A stretch of 24,886 bases of DNA from a virus. The notes beneath the pieces are model-generated. The model was not told where the DNA came from and ran no database searches. It was given only the letters and a program-made list of their open reading frames with translations. Below are positions 14,711 through 22,380 of the stretch, piece after piece. Location: positions 1-24,886 of the IMG/VR virus record IMGVR_UViG_3300032213_002269, one strand, 5' to 3'. Each line of letters opens with the position of its first letter. Positions within the stretch are counted from its first letter, which is position 1. Made by a program: the position numbers and the translations under genes.

Positions 14711-14718
14711 TATTTATA
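14711..14718 (-). promoter_or_regulatory. T4-type late promoter TATAAATA before the polymerase
   Basis: A perfect TATAAATA lies about 70 bases before the polymerase ATG and overlaps the dsbA stop codon. It is the exact T4 late-promoter word and the only copy I find on the coding strand of this window. A start here would include both leader hairpins in the transcript. Confidence 0.5.
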
Positions 14719-14974
14719 GTGTTTTACCCACAGTGGTCAAGATTTGTTCCAACAACTCATGATCCTGTTGCTCTCTACCAAACTCACTCTTGTGTGCTAG
14801 GCGGATGGCTTTCTTGAGAACATTGGGTTTGATCTCTAACTCTTCGGCAATGGCCTTGACAGTGTCGTTGAGACCACCTGTAAGTGTTTCGATCTCGTGC
14901 ATGACCTGCATGCCTTCGTTGATCACTTGGTTGAGTTTTTTGGTTTGTTCTGCGTTGAAGTTTTTTGCTGACAT
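14714..14974 (-). CDS. dsbA: DsbA-like small dsDNA-binding protein
   Basis: This 86-residue, mainly helical protein resembles T4 DsbA (89 residues), a dsDNA-binding protein that acts at late promoters. It has an N-terminal helix (FNAEQTKKLNQVINEGM), a middle segment, then IAEELEIKPNVLKKAIRLAH, which reads like the second helix-turn-helix half of DsbA, and an acidic last helix (HELLEQILTTV). It sits directly upstream of the DNA polymerase behind its own strong host-like promoter and a CAGGAGA ribosome site, so it is probably expressed early. Its stop overlaps the TATAAATA word. The family call rests on size, helix pattern and place; another small DNA-binding regulator is possible. Confidence 0.65.
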   Translation of the reverse strand: MSAKNFNAEQTKKLNQVINEGMQVMHEIETLTGGLNDTVKAIAEELEIKPNVLKKAIRLAHKSEFGREQQDHELLEQILTTVGKTL

Positions 14975-15113: not shown

Positions 15114-15704
15114 CTATTTGCGTCCGATCACCATGTAACGAGTGTATTCGGTTTCAGGATCACGCAGTTTCATGCTTCCATGATACAGGACTTCTGTAAG
15201 AGGAAAACGATCCACAATGTCTTGTGTGCTTTCAAAGTTTCTGTTTGGATCGTGATCGCGCCCTTGCATGACCACCAAGGTACCGTCGGGTATGTTCAAG
15301 AACCAACTACGACCCGGCATGTCGGTAAGACTGGTATTGATCACACAGCCATTGTTGCCTAACTGTCGGTAGTCCAGAGTATTGGAGTCTGCCAACATGT
15401 ATTCGATATTGTTGGCGCCGGCCTTGTCAAGTAATTTTTCACTGGTACTCAGGAATTGTTTGTTTTTTTCTACTAGAATAATTTCGTCAGCCTGTATTCT
15501 ATTTTCCAAGGTCAGATACAAGGCCAAATTACCATACCATGATCCTAACATGTAGATAGTGCTGTAATTTTTTTGTATTTGTTCTAGTTCGCTCAGCAAC
15601 CAAACCTTGCTGGCGGTGAGGTCACGTGTCATGCTACCAGCCAAGCTGTAGCCACTCGACTCGTCTAAGTTAGACTGGTGAGTAAGGAAATCTTGGAGTA
15701 TCAC
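15114..15704 (-). CDS. Class I SAM-methyltransferase-like protein
   Basis: This 196-residue protein has the Rossmann core of class I methyltransferases: IYMLGSWYGNLALYL (50-64), where LGSWYGN is the SAM loop; DEIILVEKN (73-81), with E79 as the ribose-binding acid; IEYMLADSNTLDY, with the motif III Asp; and a later DGTLVVMQGRD strand. No DNA-methylase target motif is seen, so the substrate is open. The start is a GTG at 15704 with GAGG 9 bases upstream. It closes the right-hand block, being followed by the inverted repeats and the dsbA promoter. Confidence 0.7.
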   Translation of the reverse strand: MILQDFLTHQSNLDESSGYSLAGSMTRDLTASKVWLLSELEQIQKNYSTIYMLGSWYGNLALYLTLENRIQADEIILVEKNKQFLSTSEKLLDKAGANNIEYMLADSNTLDYRQLGNNGCVINTSLTDMPGRSWFLNIPDGTLVVMQGRDHDPNRNFESTQDIVDRFPLTEVLYHGSMKLRDPETEYTRYMVIGRK

Positions 15705-15751: not shown

Positions 15752-16321
15752 TTACTTACCGTCCACATGTAGTTGGCTGCCTTTATTGAAACTAGGGCTA
15801 AATGGACTATTGGCCACTTGCCCGCCTTTGCTTTGACTCCATGCATATCCGGCGCGATGTCCAGAACAGTCTTTGGTACACTGGCTACCTAAAAATGTCA
15901 ATTCATCTAGTTGAGCTTCTGTGACTGGACCACCTTCAACCCAGGCATCACAGGTGCGTTTGGCCGCACACTTGAACTTCAAAAATTTACAGTACCCTAG
16001 GTTACCAGCATCTATGGTATCATGTGGATCTGAACCTGGCTCACTACCAATGCCCTTAGCTATGCACGCCAACATGTCTTCGCTGATGTCAAAGGCCGCA
16101 CAGTTACCACAACGATTCTTTTTAACACTCTCAATGTCGTCGGTGTTCCATTTGTCGGCCAACTCCTGCCAGTAAGCTTCGTTGGGTTCCGCAGGATTCA
16201 AAGGACCATAGTGATATTCATCTATGGCCTTTTGACGATTACGAAGATTGAGGTCAATGCTCTGCGTGGCCGGTGGGCAACCTGATTCAATGGCTTCTAC
16301 TAGATTGATTAAATCTCTCAT
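15752..16321 (-). CDS. Cys-rich protein with HiPIP-like ligand spacing and a capsid-targeting-like N-terminus
   Basis: This 189-residue protein begins MRDLINLVEA, with LVE|A at 7-10 matching the cleavage rule of T4 prohead protease. The middle has CGNCAAF (C71, C74), C86, GYCKFLKFKC (C111, C118) and C124-DAW, an order and aromatic context like the four-Cys cluster of high-potential iron-sulfur proteins. A second pair (C148, C152, QCTKDCSGHRAGYAW) follows. The conserved-looking PPATQSIDLNLRNRQKAIDE (16-35) precedes the Cys part. Its ATG overlaps the stop of the 36-residue gene. I recall similar phage proteins of unknown function. A packaged iron-sulfur or zinc protein is my best guess, unproven. 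Confidence 0.7.
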   Translation of the reverse strand: MRDLINLVEAIESGCPPATQSIDLNLRNRQKAIDEYHYGPLNPAEPNEAYWQELADKWNTDDIESVKKNRCGNCAAFDISEDMLACIAKGIGSEPGSDPHDTIDAGNLGYCKFLKFKCAAKRTCDAWVEGGPVTEAQLDELTFLGSQCTKDCSGHRAGYAWSQSKGGQVANSPFSPSFNKGSQLHVDGK

Positions 16322-16428
16322 GCGTCACCAATCATGGCTTTTAATTTGGCCCGGGCTTCATGGAATGAATCAGCAATGATGTCAATCCATTGTTTCGTGA
16401 TAGGATGTTTGAATGTGTATGTTGCCAT
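16318..16428 (-). CDS. 36 aa protein of strand-helix type
   Basis: This very small protein reads MATYTFKHPITKQW, then IDIIADSFHEARAKLKAMIG: two strands and one helix. The ATG at 16428 has an excellent AAGGAG ribosome site filling the 10-base gap after the 601-residue gene, and the stop overlaps the next start (ATGA), so it is very likely translated. A longer frame reaching 16515 would run back into the 601-residue gene and has no such signal. The strand-(S/T)-x-x-EA-helix shape recurs in other small proteins here. The function is unknown. Confidence 0.7.
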   Translation of the reverse strand: MATYTFKHPITKQWIDIIADSFHEARAKLKAMIGDA

Positions 16429-16438
16429 GGTATGCTCC

Positions 16439-18244
16439 TTATTTTTTTGTTTTGTTGCCCCAGTTGGCGGCACCTTTTTTACGACATTGAACCAGTGCAC
16501 CTGATGCATAAGCACTGGGCCATACCTTGTAACGACTTTTTACCTTGCGGTAGCAGGCGTCTTGTTCTTCATCTACTTGTTTCAAAGCAGCAAGGATGGC
16601 ACTGGCCTCTCTGCGACTGTCAGTGTCAGATCTAGGATCGCTTAATATTGATTTGGCTGTGTCTGTTCTGTGTTTGACAGTGGCAGGATCGCGAGGATAA
16701 TCAGGCACCCGGGTGCGATCCAAGGTAACTGCTTCTGCCACACCTTCTGGTATATCTGTAGGAGCAATGGTAATAACACCGGGATCACGACCGTCGGCCT
16801 TGAATTTGGCTCGTAATTTATTTGCTACAGCTTCTGCATGATCGTCATTCTCAAAGTCTTTCCACTTCTTACCTTTGATATAAACTGAGTAAGGTGTGCG
16901 TGGACGTCCTGTTCTTTGTGCAACAATCGCATCACTCCAACCTTCCTTCATCATGATGCCATATTCACCCGAGGCTTTTTTAAGACCACCCGGCACCATA
17001 CTATCAATTTGTTGTAGTGACAGACCGTATTCTTTCATGACAGGAGCAAGTAGTTGCGCCATTGGAGCATTGGTCATACGACGTGCTTCGCCTGCTAAAA
17101 TTTTTGTTACTTGAGCATTGATAAATTGTGGGTTAACGTTGACAGCCTCTGACATACTTTGCGACAGTTTTTGTTTGAGTGCTTGAATCTTTTGCTGATA
17201 CATTTTGCATTTGGCATCATCACCGGCACGATTGGCAGCTAGAGCAAGTGCTTCCAACTTTGACATTCGCTTTTTGATATCATCAGTGCTTTCTTCTAAT
17301 TGTGAGTCCTCAAAGGGCAGGAACCAGAACCAGTTGTGGAAGCCACCAGGATTGGTGTCATATTCCATGTGAGCACGGCCGCGTGCTGTGGCCATCATGC
17401 GTTTGAATTCGCCTTCAGCACCGTGCAGTTCAGCATAGTTTTCCAACTCATCATACAGTTGTCCGGCCAGGAAGCTGTCACGATAGCGTTCAATTTTGGG
17501 AGCCAAGCGATGATATATTTCAGCCATGCCGGCCTTGACATCTGTGACTGTTTCTTTGACTCGGGTAGCCACATTTTTGGCAGGTCCTCGGCGTTCGGGA
17601 TTGGGATCTTCTCTACGCTTTTTGGCCGCGGCACTGGCACGACCTTTTTTGCCTAGAGCATGCGCCTTGCTTTGTGGTAGACATTTTGGTTTGCCTTCCT
17701 TGCTGGATCCTCTAGCACAGTCTCCACGGATTTTACCGTCGGGACCAAAACGCACCCACTTTTCCTTGAACCACTTCTTGAGATCTTCTTCTATGGCTTC
17801 CAGTGTTTTACTTGCTGGCTTGATTCGATCTGTGGGCAAGGCATGTGACTTCCAATATTCTTCAGCACCAGCAGGTGTGGGTGCCAATTTTTCTCGACGG
17901 CGTTGTTTGGCCACTTGCTTGCCTTGTTTGAGCAAGGCCAATTGGCGATCTATTTCTGCTCGTTGGGCTAATAATTTAGGAAGTTCGCTGGGCTGGTAAG
18001 GTATGCCATAGATCTTGCTGGCCTGCCGGATGGCTTGCTCATAGTCCAAGCTGATGCCTTCGTGGCTGGCGTCACGCATGGCCATGGCAGCTGCTTTGAA
18101 CAGCAGATCCCGGCCAGTGATTTCTGGTCCTGTTTTTACTTCTTCCACAGGCACACAGTTGGGTACCTGACGGTCGCCCTTTTTCTTCATGCCTTGTTGT
18201 TGATAGCCTGTCCAGCAAGCTTCACTTATTTCTTTGTATTTCAC
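16439..18244 (-). CDS. Multi-cassette basic protein, possible packaged internal protein
   Basis: This 601-residue Lys/Arg-rich protein is built from separate parts. N-terminus MKYKEISEAC has ISE|A (6-9), a prohead-protease-like site. Residues 10-32 are a CWTGYQQQGMKKK...VPNCVP cassette. Residues 155-215 (KKWFKEKWVRFGPDGKIRGD, C176, C188, then a basic tail) resemble DUF5872. Residues about 225-310 are helical. There is a helical stretch at 315-365 with two Cys-poor LEE and MSE sites. At 451-497 a strand-rich unit begins PYSVYIKGKKWKDF. IPE|G lies at 498-501. The last 40 residues are another cassette (C564, C587; YRKVKSRYKVWPSAYASG). The GTG start overlaps the previous stop (GTGA). The parts suggest a polyprotein-like virion protein that is cut, or a modular DNA-binding filler. 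The function is not established. Confidence 0.75.
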   Translation of the reverse strand: MKYKEISEACWTGYQQQGMKKKGDRQVPNCVPVEEVKTGPEITGRDLLFKAAAMAMRDASHEGISLDYEQAIRQASKIYGIPYQPSELPKLLAQRAEIDRQLALLKQGKQVAKQRRREKLAPTPAGAEEYWKSHALPTDRIKPASKTLEAIEEDLKKWFKEKWVRFGPDGKIRGDCARGSSKEGKPKCLPQSKAHALGKKGRASAAAKKRREDPNPERRGPAKNVATRVKETVTDVKAGMAEIYHRLAPKIERYRDSFLAGQLYDELENYAELHGAEGEFKRMMATARGRAHMEYDTNPGGFHNWFWFLPFEDSQLEESTDDIKKRMSKLEALALAANRAGDDAKCKMYQQKIQALKQKLSQSMSEAVNVNPQFINAQVTKILAGEARRMTNAPMAQLLAPVMKEYGLSLQQIDSMVPGGLKKASGEYGIMMKEGWSDAIVAQRTGRPRTPYSVYIKGKKWKDFENDDHAEAVANKLRAKFKADGRDPGVITIAPTDIPEGVAEAVTLDRTRVPDYPRDPATVKHRTDTAKSILSDPRSDTDSRREASAILAALKQVDEEQDACYRKVKSRYKVWPSAYASGALVQCRKKGAANWGNKTKK

Positions 18245-21075
18245 GGTCTAGCTCCTAAGATGTATTCAACTTGATCCACCCACTCCGTGATCTGATCATC
18301 GGTGATGTGTGCTAGGTCACCCACATTGTAGGCCACTGACTCTGCGGCCTGTGTGATTTTTTCAGGACCGTATTCCATCATAAGGTCACGATGTCGGACA
18401 AATATACGTTTGAGTATGGCATCTTCGGCAGCCAAGGCAGCTGTGTCTTCGCGTATCATGCGTTGTTGTATGGTCAGCCAACCTTGTTGTTCGGCCTGAT
18501 TTTCCAACTGTTTGATAGCGGATTTTAGAATTTGTTTGTTGGCTGGATCTGTTTCCAAACCAATCATACGCAACAAACGATCTCGTTCGCGGACAAAATC
18601 TTCTTTGGATAAGATTTCTTTGGCTTCAAACTGCTGACGAGATTGTGGTGGTGCTGGTTGATTTTCTGGTGCTTGTGGTGGTTCTTGCATGTTGCCACCA
18701 CGATTTATTTTGCGCCAAATACGCAGTATGTTGCTGTTGTTGAGTTCTTCTGGTCGACCACTTACACCACGCATGATGTTTTTCAATTCTTGACGCACTT
18801 CTTCTTCTGTGCCGGCACGTGTGATGTTTTTGGCATTGTATATAACACGTCCTAGATCTTGTCCTGTTTTTAAAACTTGTTGAGATGTGGTTTTTTCTGG
18901 AGCGGTAGCACAACCAGATAAACTGCCTCCAGCCAACAAACAGGCCACAACAGCAGTGGCACTGGCTGTGTCTCGGATGTTTTCGTTAATGATCTTTTCA
19001 TCGGCTGATTCTATGCGATCAATCAAACGTTCAACAGCTTGTCTAAAATTTTTCAAACTAGGAGTGCTTAACTTGACTTGATCAATGGCTGCTTCTTCAC
19101 TGTCACCACGGCGTGTAATACTGATCACACGTGAATTGGGATTGAAAAACACTGTGTAGCCCTGTATCACACTCTTGCCGGGTATAGTGGTGCCGGGCAT
19201 GGCAAATGTTTCTTTGACACTTTCGCACACACACCTTTCATTTTGTTTGCCGCACTGTGGACACATAGCAGGAGCCTTGTAAGTGTATGGTTTGATCTTG
19301 GCATTGGTCATCGTATAGAATTCACGTTTGGTTATTCCAAATTTTTTGTAAAACTCTGCGTCGCTGGATGACTGGTAATCATCCAAGGCCTGTTTCATGC
19401 GACCTTCGCGCATGAGACTTTGCCAGTGTTGACGTGGGCCTATGCCTCCGCCATGTTCTTCCACCGTTTCTGGTTCTGTACTGACTGGCACTGATTTCTT
19501 GATGGCTTTCTCTGGACGCAATCTTCCTAGTAAGGCATTTAATTCACTCTTGGCCAGCTCATCTTCTTTTTCTTTTTTGGCCCGTAGATTGGCTTTCCGT
19601 GTGGTTGCAGCTTTGGCTACGCTTTGTTTTTTCTTCTCTATGGCAGCTTGACGTTCGGCCTGCAACTCATCAACTGTGAGTTTCAGAGTGGCAATCTGAC
19701 CTTGCAAGGCTTTTTGTTGATCTGGTCTAGCAGCCATGTTCTGTTGCAGTTTGGTGATCTGCTGATTCAATTTTTGTATTTCTGCACGAGCTTTTTCATC
19801 TTGCGCGGCCATGTCACCTGGTACCTCACCGGGTACCTCACCGGGCAATGGCAATACTTCTGGAGCCGTAGCTGGTGTTGCAATCTTGGCAGGTTGTGTA
19901 GTGGCTGGTTGAGCAGGTACTCCAGTAGCGGGCGCGGCTCGAGGAGCAACCGCAAGTGTATTAACTTGTGCAGTCACATCTTGTACAGTCTGTGCCAGTG
20001 TTTGATTTTGATTCTTTACTTGTGCTAGTTGTTGCTCTAAATCTTTGATTACTGAGTCTTGGCTGTTGTTGGTTTCCAACTGATCCATGAATCCGGCTTC
20101 CAAGGCACTGTCTGCTGAAGGAAAACGAGCACGTGCCTTTTGAAGTTCACGTGCTAGCCTAGTGTCTTTTACCGAGCCGTTAGATTTTTTTTTTTGAGTT
20201 TGGCGTTCGTTTAGATCTTTGAACGGTTCCCACTTGGGTGTGTCTGTTGGTTGGGAGGCACTGGCCGGATTAGACGTGGGTGTGGTTGCCGGTGGTGTGG
20301 CAGGAACTCTGGGCGGAATCGGTGCCTGGCTCGATGTTCTCATATTTTCAGGCGGTCTGCGATATTTAAATGGCTTGGCACGACCAATGAAGAACATGAA
20401 TGTTTCAAAATTGCCAAATTCGCTGTCTATGGCTTTTTGTCTACGATTGGTGTTCATGGTCAACAATGAGGCCAACACGTTATAGATACCTTGTTTGCTC
20501 AAGGTCGCTACTTCTTGCTCACGCATGAAAGGAATTTTTACATAAGGAACTTCGGCCTTGTAGGCCTGTAACAACTGTTGATACACAGCTTCGCCTTCGG
20601 TCTTGGGATCTGTTTGTAGATCCAGAACACCTTGTTTGGGATTTTGCTCATCAAGTTCTTGACCTTCGTAGGTCGGACCTTGATCGGGTTCGCCCTTGAG
20701 CCAACGCTTGAGGCCACCAGCCACATCTTTGACTGCGCCGGCCACACCGGGCTTGCTAGGAGTGGCACCAGCCACACGCTGTTGTGGTGTTACTAGATCT
20801 TTGCCTTTGAGCAGACCCTTGGCCGGCGGCGGAGTTTGTTGTTCTTGTGTGGGTTGGCGATCAAGTATAATATCTAATCTTTTTTGTACCAGGTCTTCGT
20901 ATTCTTGTTCTAGTTTAGCCACTTGTTTGGGATCAATTCGACCCGAGCGTAACTGGGTGCGTATGTCCATGGCTCTCCGACTCAAGGGCTCAATGAGATG
21001 AGCAATGGTATCATCTACTGCACCTTCATGTAGTTTTTTTTCAAATCGTGAATCAAACAAATCTAAACTTAACAT
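18241..21075 (-). CDS. 944 aa multi-domain low-complexity protein with zinc ribbon and internal lipobox-like segment
   Basis: This is the largest gene in the window and I do not know its function. The N-terminus ends its first segment in LHE|G (15-18), a prohead-protease-like site. Two Pro/Thr/Ala-rich linkers (about 75-130 and 250-290) and a further one near 375-415, with a GEVPGEVPG repeat, separate folded parts. Coiled coils are likely near 340-372 and 425-500. A zinc-ribbon-like knuckle CPQCGKQNERCVC has C605, C608, C615 and C617. Later a segment VVACLLAGGSLSGCATAPE reads like a lipoprotein lipobox (C722) but lies deep inside the chain. The C-terminal 150 residues are helical and charged. 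A run of 11 A lies near codons 292-295. The start overlaps the preceding TAA by one base. A packaged or polyprotein-like internal protein is the favoured idea. Confidence 0.75.
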   Translation of the reverse strand: MLSLDLFDSRFEKKLHEGAVDDTIAHLIEPLSRRAMDIRTQLRSGRIDPKQVAKLEQEYEDLVQKRLDIILDRQPTQEQQTPPPAKGLLKGKDLVTPQQRVAGATPSKPGVAGAVKDVAGGLKRWLKGEPDQGPTYEGQELDEQNPKQGVLDLQTDPKTEGEAVYQQLLQAYKAEVPYVKIPFMREQEVATLSKQGIYNVLASLLTMNTNRRQKAIDSEFGNFETFMFFIGRAKPFKYRRPPENMRTSSQAPIPPRVPATPPATTPTSNPASASQPTDTPKWEPFKDLNERQTQKKKSNGSVKDTRLARELQKARARFPSADSALEAGFMDQLETNNSQDSVIKDLEQQLAQVKNQNQTLAQTVQDVTAQVNTLAVAPRAAPATGVPAQPATTQPAKIATPATAPEVLPLPGEVPGEVPGDMAAQDEKARAEIQKLNQQITKLQQNMAARPDQQKALQGQIATLKLTVDELQAERQAAIEKKKQSVAKAATTRKANLRAKKEKEDELAKSELNALLGRLRPEKAIKKSVPVSTEPETVEEHGGGIGPRQHWQSLMREGRMKQALDDYQSSSDAEFYKKFGITKREFYTMTNAKIKPYTYKAPAMCPQCGKQNERCVCESVKETFAMPGTTIPGKSVIQGYTVFFNPNSRVISITRRGDSEEAAIDQVKLSTPSLKNFRQAVERLIDRIESADEKIINENIRDTASATAVVACLLAGGSLSGCATAPEKTTSQQVLKTGQDLGRVIYNAKNITRAGTEEEVRQELKNIMRGVSGRPEELNNSNILRIWRKINRGGNMQEPPQAPENQPAPPQSRQQFEAKEILSKEDFVRERDRLLRMIGLETDPANKQILKSAIKQLENQAEQQGWLTIQQRMIREDTAALAAEDAILKRIFVRHRDLMMEYGPEKITQAAESVAYNVGDLAHITDDQITEWVDQVEYILGARP
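19821..19844 (-). repeat. Two perfect 12-base tandem copies inside the 944 aa gene
   Basis: The plus-strand unit GTACCTCACCGG occurs twice in tandem, with a degraded third copy on the left (19809-19820). It encodes the PGEVPGEVPG linker. The unit is a multiple of three, so copy changes would keep the frame and only alter linker length. Confidence 0.85.
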
Positions 21076-21746
21076 TATTCTTCATCCAGGTAATCTTGAC
21101 TCTCGTCTTGTTGTTTCAAGCGAGACATGTACATTTCCAAGGCCATTTCGGCCTGTTCTAAGTTTTTAAAACGTGTAGGCAAACTGCGTAGACCTCTGCG
21201 TATTTCAAATCCATCTTGTTCGTTGCCATGTATTTCGCATATCATTTCGTCATTGAGGCTGATTGATTTAATCGCTTTGCTTTCTGGAGTCACAGGATAT
21301 GTTTCTCCAGTTTGGGCTCCAACTGCTGGTTCTTCCTGGGTAGGATCTTCAGTGACTGGATGGTCCTTGGCTTTGAGACCCTGATCCTTGGCATCTTTGT
21401 TCTTGAGATCTGTGTCTTCTTTTTTCTTTTCTTTGATATCAGTGTCTTTGATCTGTTCTTCGGCTTGCTTGATAAAATCTGTGAATGATTTTTTGACTTT
21501 GTCTAAAACATCTTCAGCCATGTCAGCTTCCAACACTGCTTCCTTGCGTTCCGCACTTTCGTCGCTGCCTACCAGTTTACCTGCCATGGGATTCTTGGGA
21601 TCTTTTTTAGCTGTGAGCACGGCCACAGTTTTGGGTCGGAATGTTGCTGACAGTTGATTTACACTGCGTTGGTTTTTATCCAGGCCTTCTTCCAATACAC
21701 GGAGACGATCGACAATGCTGTATATATCGTTATGATCGCGTGTCAT
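21075..21746 (-). CDS. Charged coiled protein with capsid-targeting-like N-terminus
   Basis: This 223-residue protein begins MTRDHNDIYSIVDRLRVLEE followed by G21, so LEE|G is at 18-21 and fits the prohead-protease rule. Next comes QLSATFRPKTVAVLTAKKDP and a very charged helical middle (about 60-125, many EK/DK pairs). After an acidic Pro/Thr linker comes a small folded end (ISLNDEMICEIHGNEQDGFE...RSLPTRFKNLEQAEMALEMY) that looks like a strand-helix domain. It starts 3 bases after the Dps-like gene with AAGGG nearby. I recall similar N-termini in aquatic phages without function. Scaffold or core protein of the prohead, or a packaged internal protein, are options. Confidence 0.7.
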   Translation of the reverse strand: MTRDHNDIYSIVDRLRVLEEGLDKNQRSVNQLSATFRPKTVAVLTAKKDPKNPMAGKLVGSDESAERKEAVLEADMAEDVLDKVKKSFTDFIKQAEEQIKDTDIKEKKKEDTDLKNKDAKDQGLKAKDHPVTEDPTQEEPAVGAQTGETYPVTPESKAIKSISLNDEMICEIHGNEQDGFEIRRGLRSLPTRFKNLEQAEMALEMYMSRLKQQDESQDYLDEE

Positions 21747-21749
21747 GCC

Positions 21750-22190
21750 TCATGCCCTTGCGTCTTTCAAATAACTCTTCAACTGCCACATGTACTTGCC
21801 ATGACTGCTTTGGCGCTCGGCGGCAAAGTTGGCTACGTCTTCACGGCCTTCGGCAGTGGCAACATCAAACAACTGCTTGCTCAAATCCGTCATGGTCTGT
21901 GTATCTGCGAGTAATTCTTCTAACATTAATCGAGCACGGGGAACTTTGGTTTGTCCCTGTATCAGGCTCAAGTCCTGGAAGCGTTCAAAACTGCCAGGTG
22001 CATATTCTTCTGTGGTGCGTATGTATTCAGCTGTGATGTCTACTGCACCGTAGGCATCTTCATAGATATTGGCAAAAAAGTCATGCAATTCGCCGAAGTC
22101 TGGTCCTTCCACGTTCCAATGGAAATAGTGTGCTTTCAAATAGTAAGCAAATGTCGAAGCTAGAAATTGTTTTAATGCATCACTTAACAC
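21750..22190 (-). CDS. Dps-like ferritin
   Basis: This 146-residue protein of the Dps family should form a shell that oxidises and stores iron and, in cells, protects DNA. The ferroxidase ligands are intact with the spacing of E. coli Dps: H24 in HYFHWNVEG, H36 in LHDFF, D51 and E55 in AVDITAEYIR (H-12-H-15-D-4-E, as in H51/H63/D78/E82). There is no basic N-terminal tail of the kind that binds DNA in E. coli Dps. The start is a GTG at 22190 with AAGG 8 bases upstream and overlaps the preceding gene by 11 bases. It lies among likely virion genes, so it may protect phage DNA in the cell or ride in the particle. Confidence 0.88.
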   Translation of the reverse strand: MLSDALKQFLASTFAYYLKAHYFHWNVEGPDFGELHDFFANIYEDAYGAVDITAEYIRTTEEYAPGSFERFQDLSLIQGQTKVPRARLMLEELLADTQTMTDLSKQLFDVATAEGREDVANFAAERQSSHGKYMWQLKSYLKDARA

Positions 22191-22380
22191 GGTTTTTACC
22201 TTTTAATTTCTTCATCCACGCTGGTGTATTAGGCGTGGCGCTGTTAGAGTATTTACCAGAAAAGAATGATCCGCCATTTCTTGTGATCATGCCACCCAGG
22301 GGCATAGAAACAGGTGCTATGCTGCCTGCTGTTGTGGAGGCTACACTGGCATTTTCAGTGATAAATTCGCTGGCTCTCAT
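22180..22380 (-). CDS. Small protein with a clear T4-like capsid-targeting N-terminus
   Basis: This 66-residue protein begins MRASEFITENAS, very like the 10-residue packaging signal of T4 internal proteins (such as MKTYQEFIAE), with ITE|N at 7-10 as the cut site. The remainder is Ser/Gly/Ala rich with a basic end (WMKKLKGKNRVK). It would suit a small basic protein packed with DNA. It starts 13 bases after the previous stop with a weak GAGAAG ribosome site and overlaps the GTG of the Dps-like gene. No enzymatic motif is present. Confidence 0.65.
   Translation of the reverse strand: MRASEFITENASVASTTAGSIAPVSMPLGGMITRNGGSFFSGKYSNSATPNTPAWMKKLKGKNRVK

Follow-up and report, generated by a model that had tools for sequence, protein, structure and literature searches.

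The proteins encoded by a block of neighbouring genes in this DNA, from an uncultured giant phage of the T4 type, probably start with capsid-targeting propeptides like those of T4, cut by gp21, as judged by comparison of their N-termini with those of relatives. The window, i.e. the whole analysed stretch of 24,886 nucleotides, had been proposed from its letters to carry five neighbouring proteins with prohead-protease-like targeting segments at 15752–22380, and the five N-termini are indeed as described: MRASEFITE|N, LEE|G at residues 20/21, LHE|G at 17/18, MKYKEISE|A, and MRDLINLVE|A. The comparison with relatives supports the interpretation of these segments, the 223-aa protein being the weakest case due to a register shift; a sixth tagged protein and a likeness to the capsid had been missed by the sequence-only reading. 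This likeness, between the 66-aa protein of the block and the N-fist of the capsid protein of its own lineage, is well supported at the level of sequence.

By the DNA polymerase of the window, the nearest cultured phages are the jumbo phages Phosso (50%) and Atu_ph07 (46%). The same polymerase is found at 80–96% identity in 80 IMG/VR loci, some of them on contigs of 317–337 kb, and three related contigs of this length, G001, G002, and G003, have 1267 predicted proteins in total. A head gene cluster of the T4 type, including gp21 and gp23, is present on long related contigs. In particular, gp21 (Peptidase S77) was found in four of seven long IMG/VR contigs, in Phosso, and in Atu_ph07. Hence, the prohead protease, suggested earlier as something to be sought in the full genome, has a homologue in the relatives, while the 24.9 kb window, a fragment, contains neither gp21 nor gp23. 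The capsid protein (MCP) of the lineage carries LxE|N near the expected cut, with R, K, or M at P2. The known cut in T4 gp23, E65|A66, aligns near two candidate MCP sites, ILE34|N and LRE42|N, either of which may be the cut site in this lineage. In addition to its capsid gene, Phosso has two partial gp23-family matches, at 182280–182546 and 114103–114294.

The motif [LI]xE[AGSN], with E within residue 21, was found in five of the seven ORFs at 15752–22380, while its background rate in the three related contigs was 86 of 1267 proteins (6.8%; binomial P=2.7e-5). The ORFs without the motif are Dps (21750–22190) and a doubtful 36-aa ORF; the former is a Dps/ferritin-like gene lying untagged inside the block. 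The densest seven-gene window of each relative is the homologous block, with 5/7 genes in G001, 4/7 in G002, and 3/7 in G003, whose contig ends at the block; as the three contigs are kin to one another, these results are not independent. Applied to T4, the same scan singled out the cluster of head genes, which comprises known substrates of gp21. No sharp peak appeared when [LIV]xE was counted by position across whole genomes, presumably because few proteins are tagged. PADLOC matches of the block proteins were weak (E 2.7e-4 to 8e-3), and we took them as coiled-coil or chance matches.

All tagged proteins are encoded on the minus strand. The 66-aa protein (22180–22380), MRASEFITE|NASVASTTAGSIAPVS..., has a CTS-like tag followed by an N-fist-like stretch and a basic tail. 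The predicted cut after E9 separates the putative propeptide, residues 1–9 (22354–22380), from the N-fist-like stretch, residues 10–34 (22279–22353). In its 16 distinct homologues, P3 is I, L, V, or M, P2 is one of nine residue types, P1 is E, and P1' is N, D, or T, the site E falling anywhere from position 8 to 12. Unrelated phages yielded only weak matches to this protein. The 944-aa protein (18241–21075), modular and coiled-coil-like, has LHE|G at 17/18 and a predicted propeptide at residues 1–17 (21025–21075); all 14 distinct N-termini of its family have LxE|G, VxE|G, or IxE|G with H, Q, R, V, N, T, or A at P2, and its homologues vary in length from 422 to 1433 aa. A scan of viral contigs with this protein produced no match. 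The modular 601-aa protein (16439–18244), MKYKEISE|A, with a weak C-terminal match to DUF5872, begins with GTG preceded by Shine-Dalgarno-like AGGAG, and its predicted propeptide comprises residues 1–8 (18221–18244).

The 189-aa Cys-rich protein (15752–16321), MRDLINLVE|A, is HiPIP-like by annotation of its homologues, the predicted propeptide being residues 1–9 (16295–16321). Its similarity to other phages begins after the tag, and the HiPIP-like module occurs there without this tag; within the family, two sequences have R or D at P3 under the pattern used. In Actinomycetia phage DSL-LC01, the gene for the HiPIP-like homologue adjoins an annotated capsid maturation protease. The sixth member of the set, the 196-aa protein (15114–15704) with a class I methyltransferase-like predicted fold, has LDE|S at 15/16 and a predicted propeptide at residues 1–15 (15660–15704). 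E15 is invariant in 17 aligned sequences, with tags of 8, 9, or 15 residues. In the structural model, residues 1–17 have pLDDT<50 and lie outside the confident methyltransferase-like fold, the remainder being folded. We rate the 223-aa protein (21075–21746; LEE|G at 20/21, possible propeptide at residues 1–20, 21687–21746) lower than the others, since the register of the site shifts between homologues, although 85% of the 20 homologues have the motif in the first 25 residues. No matches to the 944-, 223-, and 196-aa proteins were found in cultured phages.

Alignment of the N-termini across relatives, as suggested by the sequence-only reading, demonstrated that P3 (L/I) and P1 (E) are conserved and P2 is variable. 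The respective entropies H(P3) and H(P2) are 1.65 vs 2.98 bits in the 66-aa family, 0.73 vs 2.66 bits in the 944-aa family, and 0.78 vs 1.67 bits in the 196-aa family, compared to 0.32 vs 0.32 bits in the control family of an 86-aa protein (14714–14974). Moreover, the site is kept when the tag length differs. In the 196-aa family, MILQDFHTHQRNLDE|SSGYSL is found beside MNIRDLAE|SSGYSL, and the 66-aa family contains MRASEFIAE|N, MRLHEFVNLKE|D, as well as MRIREIME|T. The INE|G of the control protein is shared by 98% of its homologues, but does not resemble a protease site because its P2 is fixed, and hence the motif alone is not diagnostic. This protein and the base rate of such a short motif would fit an explanation by which the LxE sites belong to ordinary L/I/E-rich N-terminal helices, kept by fold or by chance, in proteins that remain in the cell. 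However, a helix of this kind does not agree with the freedom of P2 between constant P3 and P1 or with the survival of the site in tags of different length. In addition, the block is the densest run in each of the three contigs, and the tag of the 196-aa protein falls outside the confident fold. We consider this explanation unlikely.

Starts of the form M(R/K)(A/S)xEF, hereafter MRAxEF, are found in the relatives in 22 groups of otherwise unrelated proteins. As single-linkage clustering had merged shared modules, the tagged proteins were re-clustered with homology required near the N-terminus. E is at residue 9 in ∼15 of the 22 groups and V, I, or L at residue 7 in ∼19, residue 8 being variable; some tags have no E at residue 9, and the residue after E may be K, R, Y, or Q, which is less strict than in T4. 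Together with the HiPIP-like module, untagged in other phages, the 22 groups of protein bodies indicate that the tag is exchangeable among unrelated proteins. The tagged bodies in the relatives include GNAT proteins and weak matches to RegB and LPD22.

T4 gp21 cuts after L/I-X-E, and the propeptides of T4 internal proteins target the core, residues 4 and 7 of the capsid-targeting sequence (CTS) being linked to targeting, and residues 8 and 10, to processing (PMC9026906). MKTYQEFIAE, given in the sequence-only reading as a signal of T4 internal proteins, is indeed the start of IPII and IPIII in the T4 genome, whereas IPI begins with MKTFKEF...ITE|A (MKTFKEFTSTTTPVSTITE), with LxE at 19. Like the CTS of IPI, IPII, IPIII, and Alt, the tags considered here are short N-terminal propeptides of the form M[KR]xx(x)EF(I/V)xE with a cut at L/I-x-E; E5-F6-I7-x-E9 of the window tag lines up with T4 E6-F7-I8-A9-E10, and both gp21 and gp23 have homologues in relatives of the window. 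On the other hand, no homology to T4 internal proteins was found for the putative cargo, the predicted cut is in many cases followed by N, D, S, K, or R, and the tagged set is larger and more varied. In T4 itself, gp2, the DNA end protector (76061–76885), begins with MAIFQIINE|ST, which is a CTS-like site.

A few MRAxEF starts without LxE at residue 9 (MRAKEFVKK, MRAQEFQEV, MRASEFTSV) could mean that MRAxEF is a shared N-terminal signal with no role for proteolysis, serving instead for docking to the core or the membrane, as a common context for the start of translation, or as a hot spot of recombination. Yet T4 IPI also begins with MKTFKEF and has its LxE later, most tags retain V/I/L-x-E, and the other block families have different tags with the same site, which makes a signal of this kind very unlikely.

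In the cultured relative Atu_ph07, the densest LxE block is the tandem array gp53–gp63 (by CDS order), most members of which start with M[RK]W.QL(T/N)E. This array lies inside CDS 31–76, a cluster that as a whole has 29 of its 46 proteins in virions (PMC6102473). LxE was found in 13 of 51 proteins vs 44 of 761 (Fisher P=1.6e-5), although this value overstates independence, because the tagged genes of the array are related to one another. In this array (39484–50592), YRG(M/I) motifs are also seen, and gp53 has a tail resembling the N-fist. The ejection proteins of the giant phages phiKZ and SPN3US are internal to the head and are cut by prohead proteases after a short motif whose last residue is E, but several of their propeptides exceed 100 residues, far longer than those of T4 (PMC5694885). 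Packaging in phage heads has been proposed for polyvalent proteins in a paper whose themes include GNATs and large polyvalent-protein domains (PMC5512222). The tagged proteins in the relatives of the window share with them matches to GNAT and, weakly, to RegB and LPD22, but are short and single, whereas polyvalent proteins are long and multidomain.

To return to the 66-aa protein, its family HMM was searched against about 3,270 proteins. After the family members themselves, the best matches were MCPs of its own lineage (E 1e-5 to 1e-4), followed by the Phosso MCP, a 65-aa Phosso protein, and the Atu_ph07 MCP. In hhalign, residues 4–34 aligned with residues 37–67 of the MCP alignment with the cut in register (probability 80%, E 1.4e-5); since the gp23 gene of the window is outside the fragment, this comparison with its own capsid was made through relatives. 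The copy in G001 is short, and its capsid match does not stand out. The same contig encodes a 642-aa protein (321742–323670) with internal VEE|TTVAGSVATAPTGG, similar to the 66-aa stretch, and nearby, at 325390–326150, a second cluster, of MRAREF-tagged genes.

A comparable likeness is seen in T4 gp61.1, which is annotated as hypothetical. Its top PDB match is T4 gp23 residues 58–94 (E 0.0067), and gp23 is also its top match in the T4 proteome (phmmer E 1.2e-4; observed score 82 vs shuffle mean 29), the similarity spanning the cut E65|A66. When each MCP was tiled and compared with the proteome of its own phage, the best match other than itself paired the N-fist region with a single protein in four cases: T4 (with gp24 omitted), the cyanophage S-CAM9, Atu_ph07, and G002. 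In Phosso, a capsid fragment scored best. Matches to gp61.1 are found in 1402 phage records, some of them being the capsid gene itself or an annotated capsid protein. The protein exists in a short form, PHROG 1823 (54 aa), and a longer one, PHROG 2086. We found no paper on its function in the open-access literature, and no earlier description of the capsid N-fist likeness of gp61.1 or the 66-aa protein. Both have a CTS-like start (gp61.1 in its short form), a likeness to the N-fist of their own capsid, the cut in register, and a basic tail. They differ in that each resembles its own capsid protein and in gene neighbours, Dps for the 66-aa gene and the primase gene for gp61.1. The 66-aa HMM had no significant match to gp61.1 (E=3.1), and hence we rejected membership of the 66-aa protein in the gp61.1 family (PHROG 1823); PHROG 17311, a weak match of the 66-aa protein, was likewise rejected as the gp61.1 family, as gp61.1 matches PHROG 1823. 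The N-fist-like protein of S-CAM9, of 77 aa and encoded near the primase gene, has no clear LxE site.

These likenesses could be remnants of gene duplication or sequence shared on the side of the protease rather than mimicry of a binding site, and we give this explanation a chance only somewhat short of even. It would agree with the S-CAM9 protein lacking a clear LxE site and with the unremarkable match of the short G001 copy. Moreover, own pairs among nine related phages of the T4 group have a modest excess of similarity (P=0.02), so that co-adaptation of the capsid and a mimic is suggested but not shown. At the same time, a remnant would not readily explain why the small proteins of the T4 group resemble the MCP of their own group and hardly that of the jumbo group (mean 79 vs 23), or why T4 gp24, another gp21 substrate, has no N-fist likeness. 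The alternative, that T4-type phages encode a head protein mimicking the N-fist of their own MCP, is tentative, and we consider it less likely than not; its candidate members would be T4 gp61.1, the 66-aa protein, the C-terminal tail of Atu_ph07 gp53, and the 77-aa S-CAM9 protein.

For the tagged block as a whole, we infer packaging, cleavage, and ejection along the lines of T4. The proteins would be bound for the interior of the head: a propeptide of 8–20 residues would bind the prohead core, like the T4 capsid-targeting sequence, a gp21-type prohead protease would then cut after (L/I)xE, and the mature protein would stay with the packaged DNA. The cargo would be mixed: besides the two long modular proteins, it would include the protein with a methyltransferase-like fold, the iron-sulphur-like Cys protein, and one more small protein, and a part of it may be ejected into the host. 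After the cut, the new N-terminus of the 66-aa protein would resemble the mature N-terminus, or N-fist, of the capsid protein of its own lineage, followed by the basic tail, and the protein may enter the prohead and interact with N-fist sites during capsid maturation. As to the function of such a mimic, we speculate that, once freed in the prohead, in most members by the prohead protease, it might occupy N-fist sites that have no donor, e.g. beside the portal or pentamers, or compete with N-fists as the capsid expands.

If the tags act as proposed, the head-import tag of T4 would extend to a large clade of uncultured phages, and candidate head cargo could be recognized from sequence by a simple rule: P3 and P1 are kept, while P2 and the tag length are free. 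The capsid likeness would provide the first idea about T4 gp61.1, and T4 itself would serve as the system to test it.
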